Source: Halolamina pelagica (lineage in GTDB: Archaea > Halobacteriota > Halobacteria > Halobacteriales > Haloferacaceae). Taken from it: DNA of 64,000 bases. A program made the translations under genes and the position numbers. Position 1 is the first letter of the stretch. Every line of letters begins with the position of its first letter. Below the pieces are notes generated by a model. It did not search any database. It was given only the letters and a program-made list of their open reading frames with translations, and had not been told where the DNA came from. Positions 7,392 to 16,850 of the stretch are shown here, piece after piece. The stretch is from positions 310,001-374,000 of the forward strand of contig NZ_FOXI01000002.1 of the NCBI RefSeq assembly GCF_900115675.1. Reading direction: 5' to 3'.

Positions 7392-8321
7392 CTATTCGCC
7401 GAGTAGTTCCAGCAGCAGCGCCTGCTGGGTCGGCTTGCGGTTGCCGGCCTGCTGCCAGACGACCGACTGCTCGCTCTCCAGCGCGTCGTCGGTCACCTCC
7501 TCCCCGCGGTTGGCTGGGAGGCAGTGCATGAGCTTCGCGCCGCCACCGAGCAGATCTTCGCCGACCTGGAACCCCTCGAACGCTGGCAGCTTCTCCGCGC
7601 GACTCTCGCCTTCGCCCATGCTCATCCACACGTCGGTGTAGATCGCGTCGGCGCCGGCGACGGCCGCCTCGGCGCTGTCGAACAGCGTGGGCTCGCCGCC
7701 CGCAGCACGCGCGGCCGCGACGGCGTCGTCGTCGACGCCGTACCCCTCCGGCGTCGCCACGCGCAGGTCCACGCCCGCGAGCGCACAGCCGACGACGAGC
7801 GAGCGTGCGACGTTGTTGCCGTCGCCGACCCACGCGAGCGTCACGTCCGAGAGCGAGCCGCCGGACTCGGCGGCGAGCTCACGCAGCGTCAGAAGGTCCG
7901 CGAGCGTCTGGCAGGGGTGGGCGCGCTCGGTCAACGCGTTCACCACCGGCACGTCGGCGTGTGCGGCCAGTTCCGTCAGGTCGTCGTGGCTGTTCAGCCG
8001 CGCCACGATGGCGCCGACGTACTGTGAGAGCGCGCGGGCGGTGTCCTTGATCGGCTCGCCGTGGCCGAGGTGGATGTCGTCCTGCCCGAGGAACGTCGGG
8101 TGGCCGCCCAACGCCGTCACGCCGGCCTCGAAGGAGGTCCGGGTGCGGGTCGAGGGTTTCTCGAACACCATCGCCACGGTCCGGTCGTCCAGCCGTGCGG
8201 CTTCCTCGCCGGCCTTGATCCGGGCTGCCCGGTCGAGCAGCCGCGAGAGCGCCGCTGGCGAGAGCTGGTCGATCGTGAGGAGATCCGTCGGGAACGTGGG
8301 TTCGGTGTCGTTGTCGTACAT
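7392..8321 (-). CDS. argF: Ornithine carbamoyltransferase
   Basis: A 309-residue enzyme that makes citrulline from ornithine and carbamoyl phosphate. The carbamoyl-phosphate loop is FEKPSTRTRTSFEAG, the next phosphate contact is ERAHPCQTLADLLT, and the ornithine/catalytic loop is MHCLPANRGEEVT with the Cys typical of OTC rather than ATC. The start at ATG 8321 lies 13 bases after the stop of the upstream gene; the longer frame would overlap it. It is the last gene of the minus-strand operon starting at lysW. Carbamoyl phosphate synthase is not in the window. Confidence 0.94.
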   Translation of the reverse strand: MYDNDTEPTFPTDLLTIDQLSPAALSRLLDRAARIKAGEEAARLDDRTVAMVFEKPSTRTRTSFEAGVTALGGHPTFLGQDDIHLGHGEPIKDTARALSQYVGAIVARLNSHDDLTELAAHADVPVVNALTERAHPCQTLADLLTLRELAAESGGSLSDVTLAWVGDGNNVARSLVVGCALAGVDLRVATPEGYGVDDDAVAAARAAGGEPTLFDSAEAAVAGADAIYTDVWMSMGEGESRAEKLPAFEGFQVGEDLLGGGAKLMHCLPANRGEEVTDDALESEQSVVWQQAGNRKPTQQALLLELLGE

Positions 8322-8334
8322 CGGTCTGAATCGG

Positions 8335-9441
8335 TCAATCGGTGAGCTGCGCACAGGCGGTCGTCAGGACCGTCACCGCGCGGTCGAACTCGGCGAGCGG
8401 GAGGCGCTCGTCGGGCGCGTGGTCCAACTCGGCGTCGCCGGGGCCGTAGGTGACCACAGGCACGTCCCAGGCATCGGCGTAGAGGTTCGCGTCGGCGGTC
8501 CCGGTCTTGTGGAGGTGGGTCGGCTCCCCGCCGGCGTCGCGGATCGCCTTCCGGAGCGCCGCCGGCAGCACACCGCGGGGCGAGGCGACGTGGGGCGGGA
8601 TCGACTGCCCCCACGCGACTTCCCCCGCGTCGAGGCAGTCGTCGACGAGTGCACGAACCGAGTCCGGCGTCTCGCTGGCTGGGACTCGGAATCGCGTCGC
8701 CATCGACGCAGTGACGGCCGAGCCGTCGGCAGCGAGACCGCCGTCGACGGACGCCGCGGTGGCGGTGATCGTGTCGAAGCCGCCCGGTTCCGCCTGTCCG
8801 TTTGCGTCGTCGACGGCGGCACGCACTCGCTCCCACCACGCCGTCGCGTGGTCGATCGCGTTCGCCTCGGGGCGCGCGCCGTGGCCGGCGGGGGTCGACG
8901 CCGCGTACTCGCCGCCGACGATGCCGCGGTAGCCGAGCGTGATCGCCTCCCAGCCCGACGGTTCCCCGTTGATCACCGTTTCCGGCGCCTCGCGGTCCTC
9001 GATCAGGTAACGTGCGCCGCGGGAGTCGGTCTCCTCGCCGACGACGCCGACGAAGGAGGCGCCGGTTTCGACCGCGGCGACGGCCATCGCAGCCAGCGGG
9101 CCCGTCGCGTCGACGCTGCCGCGCCCCCAGAGAACGGGGCCCGCAGCGCCGAGTTCCTCGTCACCCTGCTCGACGCGGACCGGAACGTCGCCCGGGACGG
9201 TGTCGACGTGGGAGGTCAGCAGCACCGAATCGTCGCCCGGGGCGCGGACGTTCCCGGCGTCGTCGACCCAGACCTCGCGGCCGCGGTCCTCGAAGAACGC
9301 TGCGAGACGACTCCCGGCCGCGGATTCCTCCCCCGAGGGCGACGGGACCGGGACGAGGTCGGCCAGCAGTCGGCGACCAGGGGTGTCGAGCACGCCGTCG
9401 GCGCCCGGGATCTCGGTGTCGAGGGGGGCGGAGACGGTCAC
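8335..9441 (-). CDS. argE: [LysW]-ornithine/lysine hydrolase (M20 deacylase)
   Basis: A 368-residue zinc peptidase of the M20 family, expected to release ornithine from the C-terminal Glu of LysW (LysK/ArgE role). Metal ligands are visible: TSHVDTVPGDV (His and the catalytic Asp), GRGSVDATGPLAAM (bridging Asp), GVVGEETDSRGA (the Glu-Glu pair) and later THLHKTGTADAN. The start is GTG 9441, overlapping the argD stop by four bases (GTGA), which implies translational coupling. In haloarchaea this gene set serves arginine, because lysine is made by the diaminopimelate route; that is established family knowledge and was not tested here. Confidence 0.92.
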   Translation of the reverse strand: MTVSAPLDTEIPGADGVLDTPGRRLLADLVPVPSPSGEESAAGSRLAAFFEDRGREVWVDDAGNVRAPGDDSVLLTSHVDTVPGDVPVRVEQGDEELGAAGPVLWGRGSVDATGPLAAMAVAAVETGASFVGVVGEETDSRGARYLIEDREAPETVINGEPSGWEAITLGYRGIVGGEYAASTPAGHGARPEANAIDHATAWWERVRAAVDDANGQAEPGGFDTITATAASVDGGLAADGSAVTASMATRFRVPASETPDSVRALVDDCLDAGEVAWGQSIPPHVASPRGVLPAALRKAIRDAGGEPTHLHKTGTADANLYADAWDVPVVTYGPGDAELDHAPDERLPLAEFDRAVTVLTTACAQLTD

Positions 9442-10580
9442 GAGAGCACCTCCACGAGGCTCGCGACCACGCTGTCGGCGTCTCCCTCGTCCACCGTCAG
9501 CGGCGGGAGCAGGCGCACGACCGAGCGACCCGCGGGGAGCGCGAGCACCTGCTCGGAGAGCGCTAGATCGCGCAGGACGCGCATCGACCCGCGCTTGACC
9601 TCGATCCCGATCATGAGGCCCTCGCCGCGCACCTCGCGCACGGGGAGGTCGTCGGCGTCGACGGCCGCGCGTAGTTCCGTACGGAGGTACTCCCCGACTC
9701 TGGCGGCGTTCTCGGGGACGGACTGCGCCTCGATCTCGGTCAGCGTCGCGCCCGCGGCGGCGGCGACGACGGGGTTGCCCGCGAACGTCGAGCCGTGGTT
9801 CCCGGCGCCCTCGGCGATCCAGTCCGCACACAGCGTGACCCCCAGCGGGAGGCCCGAGGCGACGCCTTTCGCGGCGGTCAGCACGTCCGGAACGACGCCG
9901 GCCGACTGACAGGCCCACATCGTCCCGGTTCGGCCGAGGCCGGTCTGGATCTCGTCGAGGACGAGCGCCGCGCCCGCCGCCTCGGTCGCCTCGCGAGCAG
10001 TCTGGAGGTACGAATCGCCCGCAGGGTGGACGCCCCCCTCACCCTGTATCGGTTCGAGGAAGACCGCCGCCGTCTCGTCGTCGACGGCGTCGGCGAGCGC
10101 CTCGGCGTCGCCGTAGGGGACGAACTCGACGCCGTGCGGGAGCGGGCCGAACGGGTCGCGGTACTCGTCCTTCCAGGTCAGCGAGAGCGCGCCCAACGTG
10201 CGGCCGTGGAACGCGCGTTTCGCGACGACGACCTTCTCGCGGCCCGTCGCCGAGCGCGCGAACTTCAGCGCGGCCTCGTTTGCCTCGGTGCCGGAGTTGG
10301 GGAGCCAGACTTTCGAGAGGTCGCCCGGACCAACGTCGGCCAACTGCTCCTGTAGCGCGGTGCGTGCGGCGACTGGGTAGGAGCCCTGTACGTAGAGCAG
10401 GTCCTCGGCCTGCTCGGAGATGGCGTCGACGACCGCCGGCGGCGAGTGCCCCAGCGGCGTGCAGGCGTAAGAGGCGCCGAAATCGAGGTACTCGGTGCCG
10501 TCCGCGGCCGTGAGCGTCGCGCCCGCGCCGGACTCGATCTCGATGGGCTTCTCCGAGAAGACGAACCCCTCGCCGGTCAC
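9438..10580 (-). CDS. argD: [LysW]-glutamate semialdehyde aminotransferase
   Basis: A 380-residue class III PLP aminotransferase (ArgD/LysJ type) turning LysW-glutamate semialdehyde into LysW-ornithine. Motifs: LDFGASYACTPLGHSPPAV, the phosphate-binding SGTEANEAALKFAR, LVLDEIQTGLGRTG with the PLP-contacting Asp, and the Schiff-base Lys in LTAAKGVASGLPLG. The second phosphate loop is NHGSTFAGNPV. The start ATG overlaps the argB stop by four bases and the stop overlaps the next GTG by four. Confidence 0.94.
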   Translation of the reverse strand: MTGEGFVFSEKPIEIESGAGATLTAADGTEYLDFGASYACTPLGHSPPAVVDAISEQAEDLLYVQGSYPVAARTALQEQLADVGPGDLSKVWLPNSGTEANEAALKFARSATGREKVVVAKRAFHGRTLGALSLTWKDEYRDPFGPLPHGVEFVPYGDAEALADAVDDETAAVFLEPIQGEGGVHPAGDSYLQTAREATEAAGAALVLDEIQTGLGRTGTMWACQSAGVVPDVLTAAKGVASGLPLGVTLCADWIAEGAGNHGSTFAGNPVVAAAAGATLTEIEAQSVPENAARVGEYLRTELRAAVDADDLPVREVRGEGLMIGIEVKRGSMRVLRDLALSEQVLALPAGRSVVRLLPPLTVDEGDADSVVASLVEVLS

Positions 10581-11470
10581 GCCGACTCACCCCCAGTCGT
10601 CGCTGTCGTGTTGTCGGCGACGGCCGCGGGGTCCAGCCACGTCCCGTGCCCCTCCAGCGCGGCGAGCAGGGGTTTGCGGAGCGTCGCGTCGGAGACGACG
10701 ACGCCGGCGGCGCCGCCGGTCAGCGCCTCCTCCGCGGCGTGGACCTTGCGGCTCATGAACCCCGCCGCGGCCGCCTGGACGGCCTCGAATTCCGCCGGCG
10801 TCGACGCCTCCTCGATGAGGGTGTCCGGATCGTCGGGGTCCTCGTAGACGCCCGCCACGTCGGTCAGGAGCACTAACTCCGCGCCGAGCTCGGCCGCGAG
10901 CAGCGCGGCCACGCGGTCGGCGTCGGCGTTGGCGGCGGTGCCGTCGTCGGCCAACATCGGCGGCGAGACCGTCGGCACGTAGCCGTCGGCGAGCAGGTCG
11001 GTCAGGAGGCCGGCGTTGACCGACTCGGGCTTGCCAGCGTGATCGCCGCGGCGGATCTTCCGCTTGCCGTCCTCGACGACCCGGACCGCGGACTTGCGCG
11101 GGCCCGTGACGAGGCCGCCGTCGACGCCAGAGAGCCCGACTGCGTTGACCCCCGCGGCGCGGAGCTCCGTTACCAGTTCGGTGTTGAGCTTGCCCGGGAG
11201 TACCATCGAGAAGACCTCCAGGGTCTCCTCGTCGGTGAAACGCCCCGAGACGCCCGCGGGGGTCTCGACGTACTCGGGCTCCTTCCCGAGTGCGTCGAGC
11301 GTGTCGTCGACGGCCGTTGAGCCGCCGTGGACGACGACGACCTCGCGGCCGCTGGCGACGATGTGGGCCACGTCCTCGATCACGCCCGCCGGATCGACTG
11401 CGCGGGCGCCGCCGATTTTCACCACGAGCGGGGGCTGCTCTGGGCCAGCGGCCGCGTTGGACTCGCTCAC
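10577..11470 (-). CDS. argB: [LysW]-glutamate kinase
   Basis: A 297-residue amino-acid kinase (ArgB/LysZ type) phosphorylating the Glu carried on LysW. It opens PPLVVKIGGARAVDPAG with the kinase Lys and Gly-rich loop; VVVHGGSTAVDDT is the substrate loop, and VNAVGLSGVDGGLVTGPR, ANADADRVAALLA and LLTDVAGVYEDPDDPD are typical kinase blocks. The start is GTG 11470 and overlaps the argC stop by four bases. The long frame upstream of it is only the shadow of argC. Confidence 0.93.
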   Translation of the reverse strand: MSESNAAAGPEQPPLVVKIGGARAVDPAGVIEDVAHIVASGREVVVVHGGSTAVDDTLDALGKEPEYVETPAGVSGRFTDEETLEVFSMVLPGKLNTELVTELRAAGVNAVGLSGVDGGLVTGPRKSAVRVVEDGKRKIRRGDHAGKPESVNAGLLTDLLADGYVPTVSPPMLADDGTAANADADRVAALLAAELGAELVLLTDVAGVYEDPDDPDTLIEEASTPAEFEAVQAAAAGFMSRKVHAAEEALTGGAAGVVVSDATLRKPLLAALEGHGTWLDPAAVADNTTATTGGESA

Positions 11471-12513
11471 GGCGATCCCACCGGGTGGAACCCCGTCTGT
11501 GTCAGGCCGGCCGTCTCCTCGAGGCCGAACGCGAGGTTCGCGGCGTGGACCGCCTGCCCAGCCGCGCCCTTCATCACGTTGTCGATGGCCGCGAAGGCGA
11601 CGACGCGCTCGCCGTCCGCCGCGAAGCCGACCTCCGCGAGGTTCGTGCCGGCGACCGACTTCGGCTCGGGGTAGCGATAGACGCCGCCGCCGCCCGCGAC
11701 GAGGCGGACGAACGGCTCCCCTTCGTAGGCGTCGCGGTAGGCGCTCCAGAGGTCGGCCGTCTCGACGCCGCCCTCGACGCTCGGGCCGGTCGGGAACGTG
11801 TGACAGGTCGCGGCGGCGCCGCGGACCATGTCCACCGCGTGGACCGTGAAGGAGAGCGAGAGGCCCAGTTGCTCCTCGATCTCTGCCTCGTGGCGGTGGC
11901 CCGTGGGCGCGTACGGACGGACGACACCCGAGCGCTCCGGGTGCGATGAGGCCGCGCCGCCGCCGGCGCCGCCCTCGGAGGAGCCGACCTTGAGGTCGGC
12001 GACGACCTGGTCGTCCGGCTGGAGCAGGTCGGCGTCGACGAGCGGCTTCAGCGCGAGCATCGTCGCCGTGGCGTTGCAGCCGCCGGAGGCGACGATGTCG
12101 GCGTCGGCGAGCCCTTCGCGGCCCAACTCGGGGAGCGCGTAGGTCGCGCCATCGAGGTACTCCGGCGCCGTGTGTCCGTCGTACCACTCGTCGTAGGCCG
12201 CCTCGGTGCCCAGGCGGAAGTCCGCCGAGAGATCGATCAGGCGCTCGGCGGCGCCGAGGTACGACTCGACGTTGGCCATCGAGACGCCGTGGGGCGTCGC
12301 CGCGAACAGTGCGTCGACGCTCTCGAGGCCCTCCGGGTCCGAGAACCGCAGGTCGAGTTCACGCAGGTTCGGGTGAACGTGGCCGACCGTGCGGTTCTCG
12401 TACTCGCGGGAGGTCGCCTGCACGACCTCGAACTCGGGGTGGGCCGACAGCAGGCGGAGCAGTTCCCCGCCCGCGAAGCCGGAGGCGCCGACGACGCTCG
12501 CGGTGAGCGTCAC
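11467..12513 (-). CDS. argC: [LysW]-glutamyl-phosphate reductase
   Basis: A 348-residue NADPH-dependent reductase (ArgC/LysY). VVGASGFAGGELLRLLSAHP is the Rossmann NADP motif, ASGGCNATATMLAL holds the catalytic Cys, and DLKVGSSEGGAGGGAASSHP with the following HRHEAEIEEQL gives the catalytic His region. The ATG at 12513 overlaps the argX stop by four bases. Length is normal for the family. Confidence 0.94.
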   Translation of the reverse strand: MTLTASVVGASGFAGGELLRLLSAHPEFEVVQATSREYENRTVGHVHPNLRELDLRFSDPEGLESVDALFAATPHGVSMANVESYLGAAERLIDLSADFRLGTEAAYDEWYDGHTAPEYLDGATYALPELGREGLADADIVASGGCNATATMLALKPLVDADLLQPDDQVVADLKVGSSEGGAGGGAASSHPERSGVVRPYAPTGHRHEAEIEEQLGLSLSFTVHAVDMVRGAAATCHTFPTGPSVEGGVETADLWSAYRDAYEGEPFVRLVAGGGGVYRYPEPKSVAGTNLAEVGFAADGERVVAFAAIDNVMKGAAGQAVHAANLAFGLEETAGLTQTGFHPVGSP

Positions 12514-13412
12514 GGCTGTACCTCCGCCGGCGTGGCGTCGGTCCCGACCTCGGAGTCGGCGACTTTCGCCTCCAGCCAGTCGATGACCGTCGTCGCAACG
12601 TCCACGTCCACGGCGGCGTTGAGCGCCTTGAACTCGACCGTGTGGTTGACCTCGTGGACGGTGTACTCGTCGCCGCCCTCACCGCCCAGTTCCATCAGGT
12701 CGACGCCAAGCAGTCCGCCGCCGACCGCTTCGCTGGCCTCGCGGGCCAGACGCTCGACTTCGGAGTCGAGCTCGAACGACTCGGTCTCGGCGCCGGCCGC
12801 GGCGTTGGTGAGCCAGTGGTCGGAGCTGCGGCTCATCGCCGCCACGGGCTCGCCGTCGACGGTCAGCACGCGCAGGTCGCGGCCGGGCTTGTCGACGAAC
12901 TGCTGGACGTAGAAGACGCTGTGTTCGTAGTGGCCGAGCGTCTCCTTGTGTTCGAGCACGGCCTCCGCGGCCGAGCGCGATTCGAGTTTGGCCATCAGTC
13001 TGCCCCAGGACCCGACGACGGGCTTCAGCACGCAGGGGTAGCCGAACGCCTCGATCGCCTCCAGCGCCGACTCCGTCGTGAACGCGACGGTGGTCTCCGG
13101 CGTCGGGATCCCGGCCTCCGAGAGCGCGAGTGTGGTCTCGACCTTGTCCGAGCAGAGCTTCGCGGTCTCGGGGCTGTTGACCACGGGCACGTCGTAGTGG
13201 TCAGCGAATCGCCCCGCGTAGCGCGAGCGCGAGGTCGCCATGCAGCGGTCGAGCACCACGTCACACTGCCCCAGCGGCTCGGGCGGCGCGTCGAGGCCGA
13301 ACGTCGCCTCGCGCACGTCGACCTTGTGGACCTCGTGGCCGCGCTCGCGCAGCTCCGTCAGCAGGAGCTTCTCGTCCGGGCGGATGCGGGAGTAGAGCAG
13401 ACCGACCTCCAT
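12510..13412 (-). CDS. argX: Glutamate--LysW ligase ArgX (ATP-grasp)
   Basis: A 300-residue RimK-like ATP-grasp ligase attaching glutamate (arginine branch) or aminoadipate (lysine branch) to the C-terminal Glu of LysW. MEVGLLYSRIRPDEKLL is the typical LysX/ArgX start; YPCVLKPVVGSWGRLMAKL is the ATP-grasp glycine-rich loop; DLRVLTVDGEPVAAM and HEVNHTVEFKAL hold the metal and substrate residues. GTG 13415 and ATG 13412 are both possible; the ATG shares one base with the lysW stop (TGATG). I call it ArgX because every neighbour is an arginine gene. Confidence 0.9.
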   Translation of the reverse strand: MEVGLLYSRIRPDEKLLLTELRERGHEVHKVDVREATFGLDAPPEPLGQCDVVLDRCMATSRSRYAGRFADHYDVPVVNSPETAKLCSDKVETTLALSEAGIPTPETTVAFTTESALEAIEAFGYPCVLKPVVGSWGRLMAKLESRSAAEAVLEHKETLGHYEHSVFYVQQFVDKPGRDLRVLTVDGEPVAAMSRSSDHWLTNAAAGAETESFELDSEVERLAREASEAVGGGLLGVDLMELGGEGGDEYTVHEVNHTVEFKALNAAVDVDVATTVIDWLEAKVADSEVGTDATPAEVQP

Positions 13413-13582
13413 CACTCCCCCCAGTCTTCCGCGAGGTCGGGCGCCTCGGCCAGCTCGGCGGGGTCGACGCCCACGACTTCCAGTTCCGTGCCACAGCTGC
13501 CGCAGTCGACGATCTCGCCGACCTCGGCGTCCTCGGGCAGTGCGACGCTGTCACCGCAGGTCACGCAGTCAGCTTCTGACAT
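13412..13582 (-). CDS. lysW: LysW amino-group carrier protein
   Basis: A 56-residue acidic carrier. Residues 6-9 (CVTC) and 27-30 (CGSC) form a zinc ribbon. The protein ends EDWGE, the conserved LysW tail whose terminal Glu gamma-carboxyl carries the growing amino acid. It is the first gene of the lysW-argXCBDEF operon, with a TATA-like box at 13609-13618 giving almost no leader. Its stop shares a base with the next start. Confidence 0.92.
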   Translation of the reverse strand: MSEADCVTCGDSVALPEDAEVGEIVDCGSCGTELEVVGVDPAELAEAPDLAEDWGE

Positions 13583-13858: not shown

Positions 13859-15349
13859 TCAGACATACTCGCTCACCTCCGACGCGAGTCGGTCGTCGGC
13901 GGCCGCGAGCGCCTCGCGGTTGGCGTCGACGGCCGCCGCGTGGTCGGCGTGTGTCTCACGCATGCGGGTCAGCGACGCCTCGACCGCCGAGGCAGCGGGC
14001 CCACCCTGCGAATCACGCGCCGCGACGCTCCCGGCGGGCGAGAGCAGGTCTTCCAGCGTCTCGCGGTCGACGTAGGTCGCGAGCGAGTCGTCGAGGACGG
14101 CCGCCGCTGCGGTCTCCAGTGCGTCGATCTGCGCGTCGGTCTCGGCCATCTCCGCGTCGTCGAGGTCCGTCGCCGCCTCGGCGACGAGTTCGTGCGCGGA
14201 GCGGAACGGGAGGCCCGCAACCGCGAGCGCGTCCGCGACGCCCGTCGCCGTCGAGAACCCCGCGCCGGCGTCTGCCGCGCAGGCGTCGGCGTCCCACTCG
14301 GCGGTCGCGACGGCGCCCGCGGTGACCTCGGTCGCCTCGGTGACGATGTCGACGGCGTCCCACGCGTGGGGCGTGGCGCGCTGGAGGTCGCGGTTGTAGG
14401 CGCGGGGCAGCCCCTTCAGCGTCGAGAGCAGTCCCGTCAGGTCGCCGACGGCGTCGCCGGCGACCGCGCGGACCAGCTCCAGCGAGTCGGGGTTCTTCTT
14501 CTGGGGCATGATCGAGGAGGTCGAGGCGTAGGCGTCGTCGAGGTCGACGTGGCCGTCCTTCGCGCCCTCGATCAGGTCCGTCGCGAGCCCCGAGAGCGTC
14601 GCCGAGAGCGCGGCGAACGCGCCACAGCCCTCGACCAGGAAGTCGCGCGCGGTCACCGCGTCGGCGGCGTTCTCGATCACGTCGTGGAAGCCCAGCAGGT
14701 CAGCAGTGCGCTCGCGGTCCACGTCGAACGTGGTGCCGGCGAACGCGGCGCTGCCGAGCGGCGAGCGGTTCGTACGCTCGTAGGCGGCGAGCAGGCGTTC
14801 GGTGTCGCGCGCCACGGCGCCCGCGTAGGAGGCGAGCAGGTGCCCGACTGTGGTGGGCTGAGCGTGCTGGCGGTGGGTGAAGCCGGGGACGACGGTCCCG
14901 GTCTCCGCGGCCGCCGCGTCGAGCAGGGTCCCGCGGAGTTCGATCGTGGCCTCGGCGGCGTCCAGCAGGTCCTGGCGGAACCGGTAGCGGATGCAGGTCG
15001 CGACCTCGTCGTTGCGCGAGCGTGCGGTGTGCATCTTCCCGCCTGCGGGCCCGACTTCCTCGACGACGGCCGACTCGATGGCCTCGTGCACGTCCTCTCC
15101 CTCGGGGAGCGCCTCGTGGCCGGCTTCCGCCACGGTATCGAGCGCGCCGAGGATGGCCCCGGCGTCGTCGTCGCCGACGATCCCCTGCTCGGCCAGCATC
15201 ACGACGTGTGCGCGGTCGACTGCGAGGTCCGCCGCGAAGATGCGCTGGTCGGCGTCGAGGCTCGACATGAACGACCGCGCGGGGCCGCCCGCGAAGCGCT
15301 CGCGGCGGACGACGGTTTCCGCGGTTCCGCTGGGGTCGTCGCCGGTCAT
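13859..15349 (-). CDS. argH: Argininosuccinate lyase
   Basis: A 496-residue fumarase/aspartase-superfamily lyase that splits argininosuccinate into arginine and fumarate. Signatures: KMHTARSRNDEVATCIRYRF, VVPGFTHRQHAQPTTVGHLL and the mobile catalytic loop TSSIMPQKKNPDSLELVRA. It abuts argG exactly (argG stop 15350-15352, argH ATG 15349), so both are on one transcript. It is slightly longer than the usual 460-490 residues. The same frame stays open past the TGA with an Ala/Pro-rich stretch, described under findings. Confidence 0.95.
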   Translation of the reverse strand: MTGDDPSGTAETVVRRERFAGGPARSFMSSLDADQRIFAADLAVDRAHVVMLAEQGIVGDDDAGAILGALDTVAEAGHEALPEGEDVHEAIESAVVEEVGPAGGKMHTARSRNDEVATCIRYRFRQDLLDAAEATIELRGTLLDAAAAETGTVVPGFTHRQHAQPTTVGHLLASYAGAVARDTERLLAAYERTNRSPLGSAAFAGTTFDVDRERTADLLGFHDVIENAADAVTARDFLVEGCGAFAALSATLSGLATDLIEGAKDGHVDLDDAYASTSSIMPQKKNPDSLELVRAVAGDAVGDLTGLLSTLKGLPRAYNRDLQRATPHAWDAVDIVTEATEVTAGAVATAEWDADACAADAGAGFSTATGVADALAVAGLPFRSAHELVAEAATDLDDAEMAETDAQIDALETAAAAVLDDSLATYVDRETLEDLLSPAGSVAARDSQGGPAASAVEASLTRMRETHADHAAAVDANREALAAADDRLASEVSEYV

Positions 15350-16582
15350 CTACTCCCCGCCGTCCGTCGAGAGCGTGGCTTTCTCCTGTTCGTCCTCGGT
15401 CTCTGCGCTCTCTTTCACCTGGTTTGCCAAGCGCTCCTGGAAGCCGTGGTACTTCGCGACACCGGTCGCGTCGGCCTGTTCGATGCCGTTCACGGTCTCG
15501 GTGTTGAACGAGGCCGCGTTCTCGGAGTAGACGCCGTACTCGGACTCGCGGGCGACCGGACGGACGTGCCCGCCCTGCAGCTTCACCGTCACCGTGCCGG
15601 TGACCTTCTCCTGTGAGGCGTCGAGGTAGCCGTTCAGGCTCTCCGTCAGCGGGGAGAACACCAGCCCGCGGTAGGCCTGCTCGGCCCACTGCTGGTCGAT
15701 CTGGGGCTTGAAGTCGCGCTCGGTCTTCGTGAACACCAGCTGTTCGAGCGCCTCGTGCGCGGTCAGGAGGACGGTCGCCGCGGGGTGCTCGTAGTTCTCG
15801 CGCACTTTCAGCCCGAGCATGCGGTCCTCGAGCATGTCCGTGCGGCCGACGCCGTGGGCGCCTGCAAGCGCGTTGAGCTCCTCGATCAGGTCGACGGGGT
15901 CGAGGTGGTCGCCGTCGATCGCGACCGGATAGCCGTCCTCGAACTCGATCTCGACGAGTTCCTCGCCGCCGCTGGGGGTCTCGGTCCACTCGTAGATGTC
16001 CTCGCTCGGGACGTGGCCGGGGTCTTCGAGGTCCCCACCCTCCACGGAGCGGGACCAGAGATTGGTGTCGATGCTCCAGGTCCCCTCGTTGCCGGCTTCG
16101 ACGGGCAGGTCGCGCTCGGCGGCGTACTCGACCTCCCACTCGCGGGTCAGGCCGAGTTCGCGGACGGGGGCGATGACTTCCAGGTCCGAGCCGCGCCAGA
16201 CGGTCTCGAAGCGGAGCTGGTCGTTGCCCTTCCCCGTACAGCCGTGGGCGATCGCGTCGCAGTCCTGCCCCTCGGCGACCTCGAGGATCGCCTCGGCAAT
16301 CACCGGGCGTGCCAGCGCGGTCCCGAGCGGATAGCCTTGATACGTGGCGTTCGCGCGGACCGAGTCGAAACACAGCGACGCGAACTCCTCGGTGGCGTCG
16401 ACGACGTGGATGTCCAACCCGAGCGCGTCGGCGGTCTCTCGCGCCTCGGCGAACTCGGCCTCGGGCTGGCCGACGTCGACGGTCACGGCGACGACCTCGT
16501 CGTAGCCGTACTCCTCTTGCAGTAGCGGGACACAGACGGTGGTGTCGAGTCCACCGCTGAACGCGAGCGCGACTTTCGTCAT
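15350..16582 (-). CDS. argG: Argininosuccinate synthase
   Basis: A 410-residue ATP-pyrophosphatase ligase joining citrulline and aspartate. The PP-loop is VALAFSGGLDTTVCVPLL at the N-terminus; GCTGKGNDQLRFE and EWEVEYA are further family blocks. The ATG is at 16582, with a TATA-like box at 16606-16615 about 29 bases upstream. It is the first large gene of the argGH unit. A 33-residue leaderless frame starts 238 bases upstream on the same strand. Confidence 0.95.
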   Translation of the reverse strand: MTKVALAFSGGLDTTVCVPLLQEEYGYDEVVAVTVDVGQPEAEFAEARETADALGLDIHVVDATEEFASLCFDSVRANATYQGYPLGTALARPVIAEAILEVAEGQDCDAIAHGCTGKGNDQLRFETVWRGSDLEVIAPVRELGLTREWEVEYAAERDLPVEAGNEGTWSIDTNLWSRSVEGGDLEDPGHVPSEDIYEWTETPSGGEELVEIEFEDGYPVAIDGDHLDPVDLIEELNALAGAHGVGRTDMLEDRMLGLKVRENYEHPAATVLLTAHEALEQLVFTKTERDFKPQIDQQWAEQAYRGLVFSPLTESLNGYLDASQEKVTGTVTVKLQGGHVRPVARESEYGVYSENAASFNTETVNGIEQADATGVAKYHGFQERLANQVKESAETEDEQEKATLSTDGGE

Positions 16583-16605: not shown

Positions 16606-16615
16606 GGATAAATAC
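16606..16615 (-). promoter_or_regulatory. Promoter of argGH
   Basis: ggataaatac (GTATTTATCC on the minus strand) is centred 29 bases before the argG ATG, so argG can be transcribed without the upstream mini-frame. A minus-strand U-rich run (GTTTTCTTTC, near 16632-16641) just upstream could end transcription coming from the mini-frame. Confidence 0.55.
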
Positions 16616-16718
16616 ACCGATTTAGGGTTTGAAAGAAAACGTGCTACGACACGCTACGCGAACGAAGAACTGGTAAACAGCGGCGAAACCGTGACGATGG
16701 GGGAAGGTTGAGTTGGGC

Positions 16719-16820
16719 CTAAGCGGCCCGCGGCCGGAACGCGACCCGTCGCTGTCGAACGGCGTCGACAGCGATGTCGACGGCGGATGGGCCGTCGACG
16801 GCGATGGTCGCGTGAGTCAC
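16719..16820 (-). CDS. Leaderless 33-residue protein upstream of argG, Arg-rich C-terminus
   Basis: A GTG-started frame of 33 residues lying in the 282-base gap between the aminotransferase gene and argG. It has its own TATA-like box exactly 25 bases upstream, most third codon positions are G or C, and it runs MTHATIAVDGPSAVD then into VRQRRVAFRPRAA, where five of 13 residues are Arg. I do not recognise the family. It could be a small protein of its own or a leader peptide whose Arg codons sense arginine supply. It was judged by hand, so it may be a chance frame. Confidence 0.45.
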   Translation of the reverse strand: MTHATIAVDGPSAVDIAVDAVRQRRVAFRPRAA

Positions 16821-16840: not shown

Positions 16841-16850
16841 GGTAAATAGA
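16841..16850 (-). promoter_or_regulatory. TATA box for the 33-residue frame upstream of argG
   Basis: ggtaaataga (TCTATTTACC on the minus strand) is centred 25 bases before GTG 16820, the canonical leaderless distance. No other gene on this strand starts nearby. Confidence 0.5.

Follow-up and report, generated by a model that had tools for sequence, protein, structure and literature searches.

The question raised by this locus is whether a short, arginine-rich reading frame lying immediately upstream of argG in the haloarchaeon Halolamina pelagica is translated as a leader and thereby senses the arginine supply for the arginine biosynthesis genes behind it. Such a role had been proposed in the initial annotation of a 64,000-nucleotide stretch of H. 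pelagica DNA (the window), which was made from the sequence alone. Here, we analysed this frame and its surroundings in the window, in the genus Halolamina and across the class Halobacteria, together with the leaders of other genes that carry runs of a matching amino acid.

A leader frame upstream of an arginine operon

The 33-codon frame is present in the window as it had been described, with its GTG start and five Arg among the last 13 residues (Table 1). The signals reported around it could also be located, namely a TATA-like box of its own, a separate TATA-like box of argG and, between the leader and argG, a U-rich run that follows a short stem. This stem with its T-rich tail was found once in the gap, against 0.3 expected in shuffled sequences; the stretch is conserved in the genus, and similar ones occur in other lineages whose argG has its own box (referred to as two-promoter lineages). 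It had further been claimed that the frame precedes argGH on the same strand. The order and the strand were borne out, but the downstream unit is larger than thought: profile matches assign nine arg genes to it, not argGH alone.

Table 1 Features of the leader region and of the arginine operon in the window
Feature	Position	Strand	Sequence or evidence
Leader TATA-like box	16843..16850	(-)	TCTATTTA; begins 30 nt 5' of the GTG
Leader ORF	16820..16719	(-)	GTG start, 33 codons, VTHATIAVDGPSAVDIAVDAVRQRRVAFRPRAA, ending RQRRVAFRPRAA; stop TAG at 16721-16719
Hairpin A within the leader ORF	16776..16799	(-)	GTCGACGGC..GCCGTCGAC; predicted fold
Control region with Arg codons	16728..16757	(-)	CGA CAG CGA CGG ... 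CGG CCG CGG; conserved in the genus, class-wide Arg peak
Hairpin B	16715..16729	(-)	GGGCC-GCTTA-GGCCC, TAG in loop and 3' arm; same ORF position in all lineages, arms covary
G-free C/U/A tract	16696..16714	(-)	Immediately 3' of hairpin B; G-free run statistics
Short stem and T-rich tail in the leader-argG gap	16631..16656	(-)	Stem followed by TTTTCTTTC; possible terminator of the leader RNA
argG TATA-like box	16608..16616	(-)	TGTATTTAT; identical throughout the genus, lacking in six other lineages
argG, argininosuccinate synthase	15350..16582	(-)	NCBIfam TIGR00032 / NF010392 above cut-off
argH, argininosuccinate lyase	13859..15349	(-)	TIGR00838 above cut-off
lysW/argW amino-group carrier protein	13412..13582	(-)	TIGR01206 above cut-off
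lysX/argX ligase	12510..13415	(-)	TIGR02144 above cut-off
argC	11467..12513	(-)	TIGR01850 above cut-off
argB-type kinase (start not refined)	10577..11461	(-)	NF010661 above cut-off
argD-type transaminase	9438..10580	(-)	NF002874 / TIGR00707, strong but below curated cut-offs
argE/lysK-type hydrolase	8335..9438	(-)	NF003367 above cut-off
argF, ornithine carbamoyltransferase (start not refined)	7392..8318	(-)	TIGR00658 above cut-off

Conservation of the frame in the genus and in the class

A frame broken in close relatives would have refuted the leader idea. However, it is open in all six congeners, which retain the Arg-rich end (RQ[RP]RVAFRPRA[AI] before the stop) as well as its place before argG. 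These congeners carry 14-24 codons ahead of the conserved end, and all the differences in length are multiples of 3. The control region is invariant across the genus except for one codon (CGA, CGG or CCG), and the TATA region of the leader, the argG box and the T-rich stretch are likewise retained. The conservation of the last ~48 bp of the element is nearly complete in the genus and includes third codon positions and bases past the stop. This would suit a non-coding site acting in cis at the level of RNA or DNA, i.e., a GC palindrome that is bound by a regulator or serves as a terminator, with the frame as no more than a by-product of GC-rich sequence; the restriction of indels to multiples of three argues against such a site. 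An exact pattern drawn from the leader matched three Halolamina genomes. Outside the genus, a search with the genus motif as a DNA pattern gave only scattered, chance-like matches with a single mismatch, and a protein search with the short leader peptide yielded no convincing match.

The same layout was found class-wide, consisting of a TATA box, a small ORF with a 5' hairpin, an Arg run, a stop codon in a GC hairpin and a G-free tract. Under a strict rule (an ORF of 15-60 codons whose stop is located in the loop of a GC hairpin), 92 of 110 argG-upstream regions (~48 genera) carry an ORF with its stop in the hairpin. Inspection by eye of the 18 regions failing this rule showed that some have the stop just past the hairpin or a 4-bp stem, and that a few look degenerate. 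The leader peptides vary widely in length (18 to 57 codons) and in sequence except for their Arg residues, with ends such as RRPRRPGR, RQRRVAFRPRAA, RRVPRRPGSF and RRRPAL in different lineages. Despite this range of lengths, 85 of 95 candidate starts located ~30-34 nt after a TATA box are in frame with the hairpin stop. Among the evidence for translation of the ORF, this retention of the frame from start to stop carries the most weight, and it is difficult to reconcile with the non-coding site. Because the species are not independent, such class-wide counts overstate the number of events.

The linkage to argG is equally visible in the genomes. A pattern composed of the hairpin and its flanks matches 59 of 194 Halobacteria genomes; the position of argG is known for 35 of these, and in 32 the match is found shortly before the gene and on its strand. 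Two side observations concern the distribution of the element. The hairpin pattern CGACSGGSCCGTAGTAGGGCC occurs in three genomes of family f6 (G156:C1:922527, G095:C1:342376 and G040:C4:55468); the match in G156 is not at argG, and argG positions are not listed for G095 and G040. In addition, argG was matched on three different contigs of genome G218: L135 (C85) and L137 (C78) lie directly after another gene and have no leader; the third locus, L136, does have one.

At the usable argG loci among the 23 collected from the phylum's other classes, the element was not seen upstream of the gene; in one locus (L205), the gene start is mislocated. A comparison of six leaders with Pfam gave no match at E-values up to 1, and none of the six belongs to the speF leader orf34 family (PF10940). 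Similarly, Rfam had no relevant match in the region of the window and none that reached the gathering threshold when 14 other leader loci were compared.

A hairpin around the stop codon and the tract behind it

The GC palindrome around the stop codon, hairpin B, is the best-conserved piece of the element class-wide, a feature that again suits a non-coding site. Its sequence, however, differs between families (arms GGGCC/GGCCC, GGCCC/GGGCC, CGGGC/GCCCG, GGGGTC/GACCCC and GGGGC/GCCCC), with paired changes at the second, third and fifth positions; what stays constant is the pairing together with the stop codon, and this weighs against that alternative. As the set of hairpins was chosen for pairing, these counts cannot be used as a significance test. 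The 5' half of the leader ORFs also folds better than shuffled sequences across the class (mean z -1.65).

Behind hairpin B, the longest G-free run within 44 nt has a median of 18 nt, compared with 6 nt in random 44-mers of the window, and runs of at least 18 nt are found in 67% of the leaders versus 0.4% of the random 44-mers. No classical hairpin with a U-run was detected directly after hairpin B. Nor was there a general antiterminator in which the Arg run would pair with downstream sequence (mean z -0.27 in the two-promoter and -0.64 in the single-promoter lineages). Strong pairing of the Arg run with the segment after hairpin B was observed at L129, L150, L151, L174, L175 and L185, which, going by the modelled folds, could represent a lineage-specific alternative structure. 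The position of hairpin B is such that a ribosome standing on the Arg codons would block its formation.

A frame-specific run of rare arginine codons

The Arg content of the leaders is specific to the reading frame. In the last 12 codons, Arg accounts for a fraction of 0.37 in frame and for 0.20 and 0.12 in the two other frames, and it peaks at codons -4 (0.75), -5 (0.73) and -7 (0.62) before the stop. GC-rich DNA by itself favours open frames and CGN codons, and control ORFs elsewhere that also end in a hairpin reach Arg fractions of 0.21-0.24, a point that can be made for a frame arising as a by-product.

The choice of codon is more telling. CGA makes up 288 of the 410 Arg codons (70%) in the last 12 codons of the leaders, as opposed to 20 of 143 when codons 13-25 of these ORFs are counted, 7 of 480 (1.5%) in argG genes and 6 of 120 (5%) in five neighbouring genes of the window (where CGC is used 82, CGG 23 and CGT 7 times). 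CGC is missing altogether from the five Arg codons among the last 13 of the window leader. This confinement of rare Arg codons to the control region fits codon-dependent stalling. On the other hand, the CGA repeats could be an RNA motif instead of codons. A non-coding site nevertheless has to contend with an Arg enrichment that is specific to the frame and a CGA bias that is restricted to the end of the ORF, the earlier codons being CGC as in ordinary genes, and we consider it an unlikely explanation of the element as a whole.

Leaders with matching residues at pheS and the second trpS

Two further genes of Halobacteria are preceded by leaders with their own cognate residue. At pheS, 21 of 28 loci (among L221-L246) have a leader ORF whose last codons include a run of Phe, usually as GFGFFFA before the stop; these leaders show strong hairpins, one within the reading frame and a long stem 3' of the stop codon. 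The window's own genome is among them, with the pheS leader MAPDTAARTNRLAAAGRGVGFFFA followed by a stop (L235, G000:C14, ~197185). At a second trpS (trpS2), leaders with WRWR, WRWW or WQWRW were found in all nine loci (L310-L318), in genomes having this gene, and they show two strong hairpins, the second of which usually holds the stop codon. No clear TATA box was seen between the leader and the gene at pheS or trpS2. Cognate-rich leaders were absent within 1500 nt before trpE, trpD and ilvB.

A correspondence of residue and gene that recurs at three genes is unlikely to reflect chance or a role confined to the DNA. With these parallels, two criteria of an attenuator are fulfilled at argG: cognate codons are clustered, as seen from the frame-specific Arg run and its Phe and Trp counterparts, and the control codons are rare, as seen from the CGA bias. 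The pheS and trpS2 leaders also suggest that the signal is tRNA charging and not a ligand. This bears on the possibility that the frame is an upstream ORF of the kind represented by the fungal arginine attenuator peptide, in which arginine would stall the ribosome through the nascent peptide and repress the downstream gene. An Arg-rich C-terminus beside the stop, upstream of an arginine biosynthesis gene, is compatible with such an arrest; yet the peptides are too divergent between lineages for a conserved arrest sequence, and the rare-codon bias is better explained by stalling that depends on codons. Taken with the evidence for tRNA charging, these points leave peptide-mediated arrest very improbable.

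Promoter layout in two groups of lineages

The lineages fall into two groups by the promoter-like boxes before argG. A TATA-like box belonging to argG itself is present in f1 (the window's family), f10, f14, f17-g74 and most of f7, where about 120-157 nt separate the stop codon of the leader from argG. In f3, f4, f5, f12, f7-g85 and f17-g44, argG has no full TATA-like box; the leader stop is mostly 70-145 nt from argG, and only the G-free tract was seen in between, where a premature terminator would be expected. The lack of an argG box in at least six lineages implies that the leader should be the 5' UTR of argG there, and as the 5' part of the argG transcript it can hardly avoid a role in cis.

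We also considered whether the leader is simply a gene in its own right that merely adjoins argG and specifies a small basic peptide or a short RNA with a separate function. Its own promoter-like box, the separate argG box of the two-promoter lineages and the T-rich, stop-like signal between the leader and argG in the window would all be in keeping with such a gene. However, in the six single-promoter lineages the leader's box is the only one before argG, the linkage to argG is tight throughout the class, the peptide is poorly conserved outside the Arg run and without a Pfam match, and leaders at pheS and trpS2 are rich in their own amino acid. We regard an unrelated neighbour as very improbable.

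For the two-promoter lineages, the presence of an argG box means that the leader cannot be the sole control of argG. Here, including the window's lineage, a cis-acting leader can control only the transcripts from its own promoter, and in the window's lineage it may thus control only part of argG expression. In these lineages, conservation extends to a TAGCGTGCAGT-like motif with a T-rich stretch behind it, ~60-90 nt before argG (L008-L030 and similar loci; 16656-16631 in the window) and upstream of its TATA box. This motif and the T-rich stretch may be an operator or a terminator of the leader RNA.

A model of ribosome-mediated control

The proposal of an arginine-sensing leader is thus supported by the class-wide layout, the rare CGA codons and the cognate leaders at pheS and trpS2, although a response to arginine itself has not been shown. 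We estimate the probability at roughly three in four that the leader ORF is translated and senses the arginine supply for the arg operon by ribosome-mediated control, where translation, stalling and the arginine response are all inferences from comparative sequence data. In this model, a leaderless transcript would begin at or near the start codon of the leader. The ribosome would open hairpin A and then meet the rare Arg codons about 4-10 codons before the stop. With ample Arg-tRNA, it would finish and leave, and hairpin B could form ahead of the G-free tract, by which expression of the downstream arg genes would be limited. With scarce Arg-tRNA, it would stall on the Arg codons (-4 to -7) with its front edge at the 5' arm of hairpin B; hairpin B would then be kept open, and argG and the rest of the operon would be expressed. 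The direction of control is likewise inferred, and the simplest one is that at low arginine the hairpin is open and the operon is on.

The last step is also an inference. It may be premature termination, possibly by FttA; reinitiation or RNA decay is not excluded. FttA-dependent termination is attractive in view of the hypothesis that a coupled ribosome keeps FttA out (PMC11616081). A hairpin has been shown to terminate transcription partially in Haloferax (PMC7237163). A broader proposal, which we advance tentatively and regard as somewhat short of even odds, is that ribosome-mediated attenuation operates throughout Halobacteria and evolved separately from that of bacteria: leaderless cognate-codon leaders (Arg at the arg operon, Phe at pheS, Trp at trpS2) would gate read-through via a stop-codon hairpin, and termination would be brought about by FttA/Spt5 and not by a bacterial-type hairpin with a U-run.

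If the model is true, archaea sense amino acids by the progress of the ribosome through a leader peptide, as the class-wide Arg leaders and the matching Phe and Trp leaders would indicate. Transcription-translation coupling and FttA action in archaea could then also be tested in vivo at these naturally occurring loci, in a class that has tractable laboratory species among its members.

Comparison with known systems

Ribosome-mediated attenuators are known from bacteria, as in the trp, his, leu and pheST leaders. The haloarchaeal leaders share with them a short leader ORF, a succession of cognate codons ahead of a gene for biosynthesis or for a synthetase, hairpins that overlap the ORF and rare control codons, and the haloarchaeal pheS leader (GFGFFFA) resembles the Escherichia coli pheST leader in its logic. 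They differ from the bacterial systems in the archaeal host, the TATA promoter, a leader mRNA that is probably itself leaderless and the location of the stop inside the hairpin, as well as in the absence of a U-run directly after the hairpin and of any general antiterminator pairing in our searches.

In fungi, the arginine attenuator peptide is a conserved nascent peptide for which arginine is the ligand. It has in common with the haloarchaeal leader an upstream ORF tied to arginine synthesis. In the haloarchaeal leader, by contrast, it is the Arg codons and not the peptide sequence that are conserved, and the criterion of a conserved arrest sequence is not met.

For archaea, a 2021 paper stated that neither transcription attenuation nor antitermination had a known example (PMC8448881). 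A study of start sites in Haloferax volcanii described upstream ORFs that are transcribed, within long 5' UTRs, ahead of ordinary genes, among them pheS and a gene for a tryptophanyl-tRNA ligase, some of these genes also having their own start site; in the portion of that article available, the table of upstream ORFs does not include argG, and there is no remark on matching amino-acid runs (PMC4983044). We found no report of a comparable archaeal attenuator in the literature searched; preprints and most subscription papers were outside its scope, and an earlier description is possible.

A further parallel in terms of arginine is the Salmonella speF leader orf34, in which consecutive Arg codons couple the arginine supply to downstream expression via ribosome pausing (PMC6386406). 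This system demonstrates that the principle of sensing by Arg codons works in bacteria (PMC6386406). The orf34 product is a conserved peptide (PF10940) preceding ornithine decarboxylase, whereas the haloarchaeal leader has no Pfam match, stands before the genes of arginine synthesis and carries its stop codon within a hairpin.
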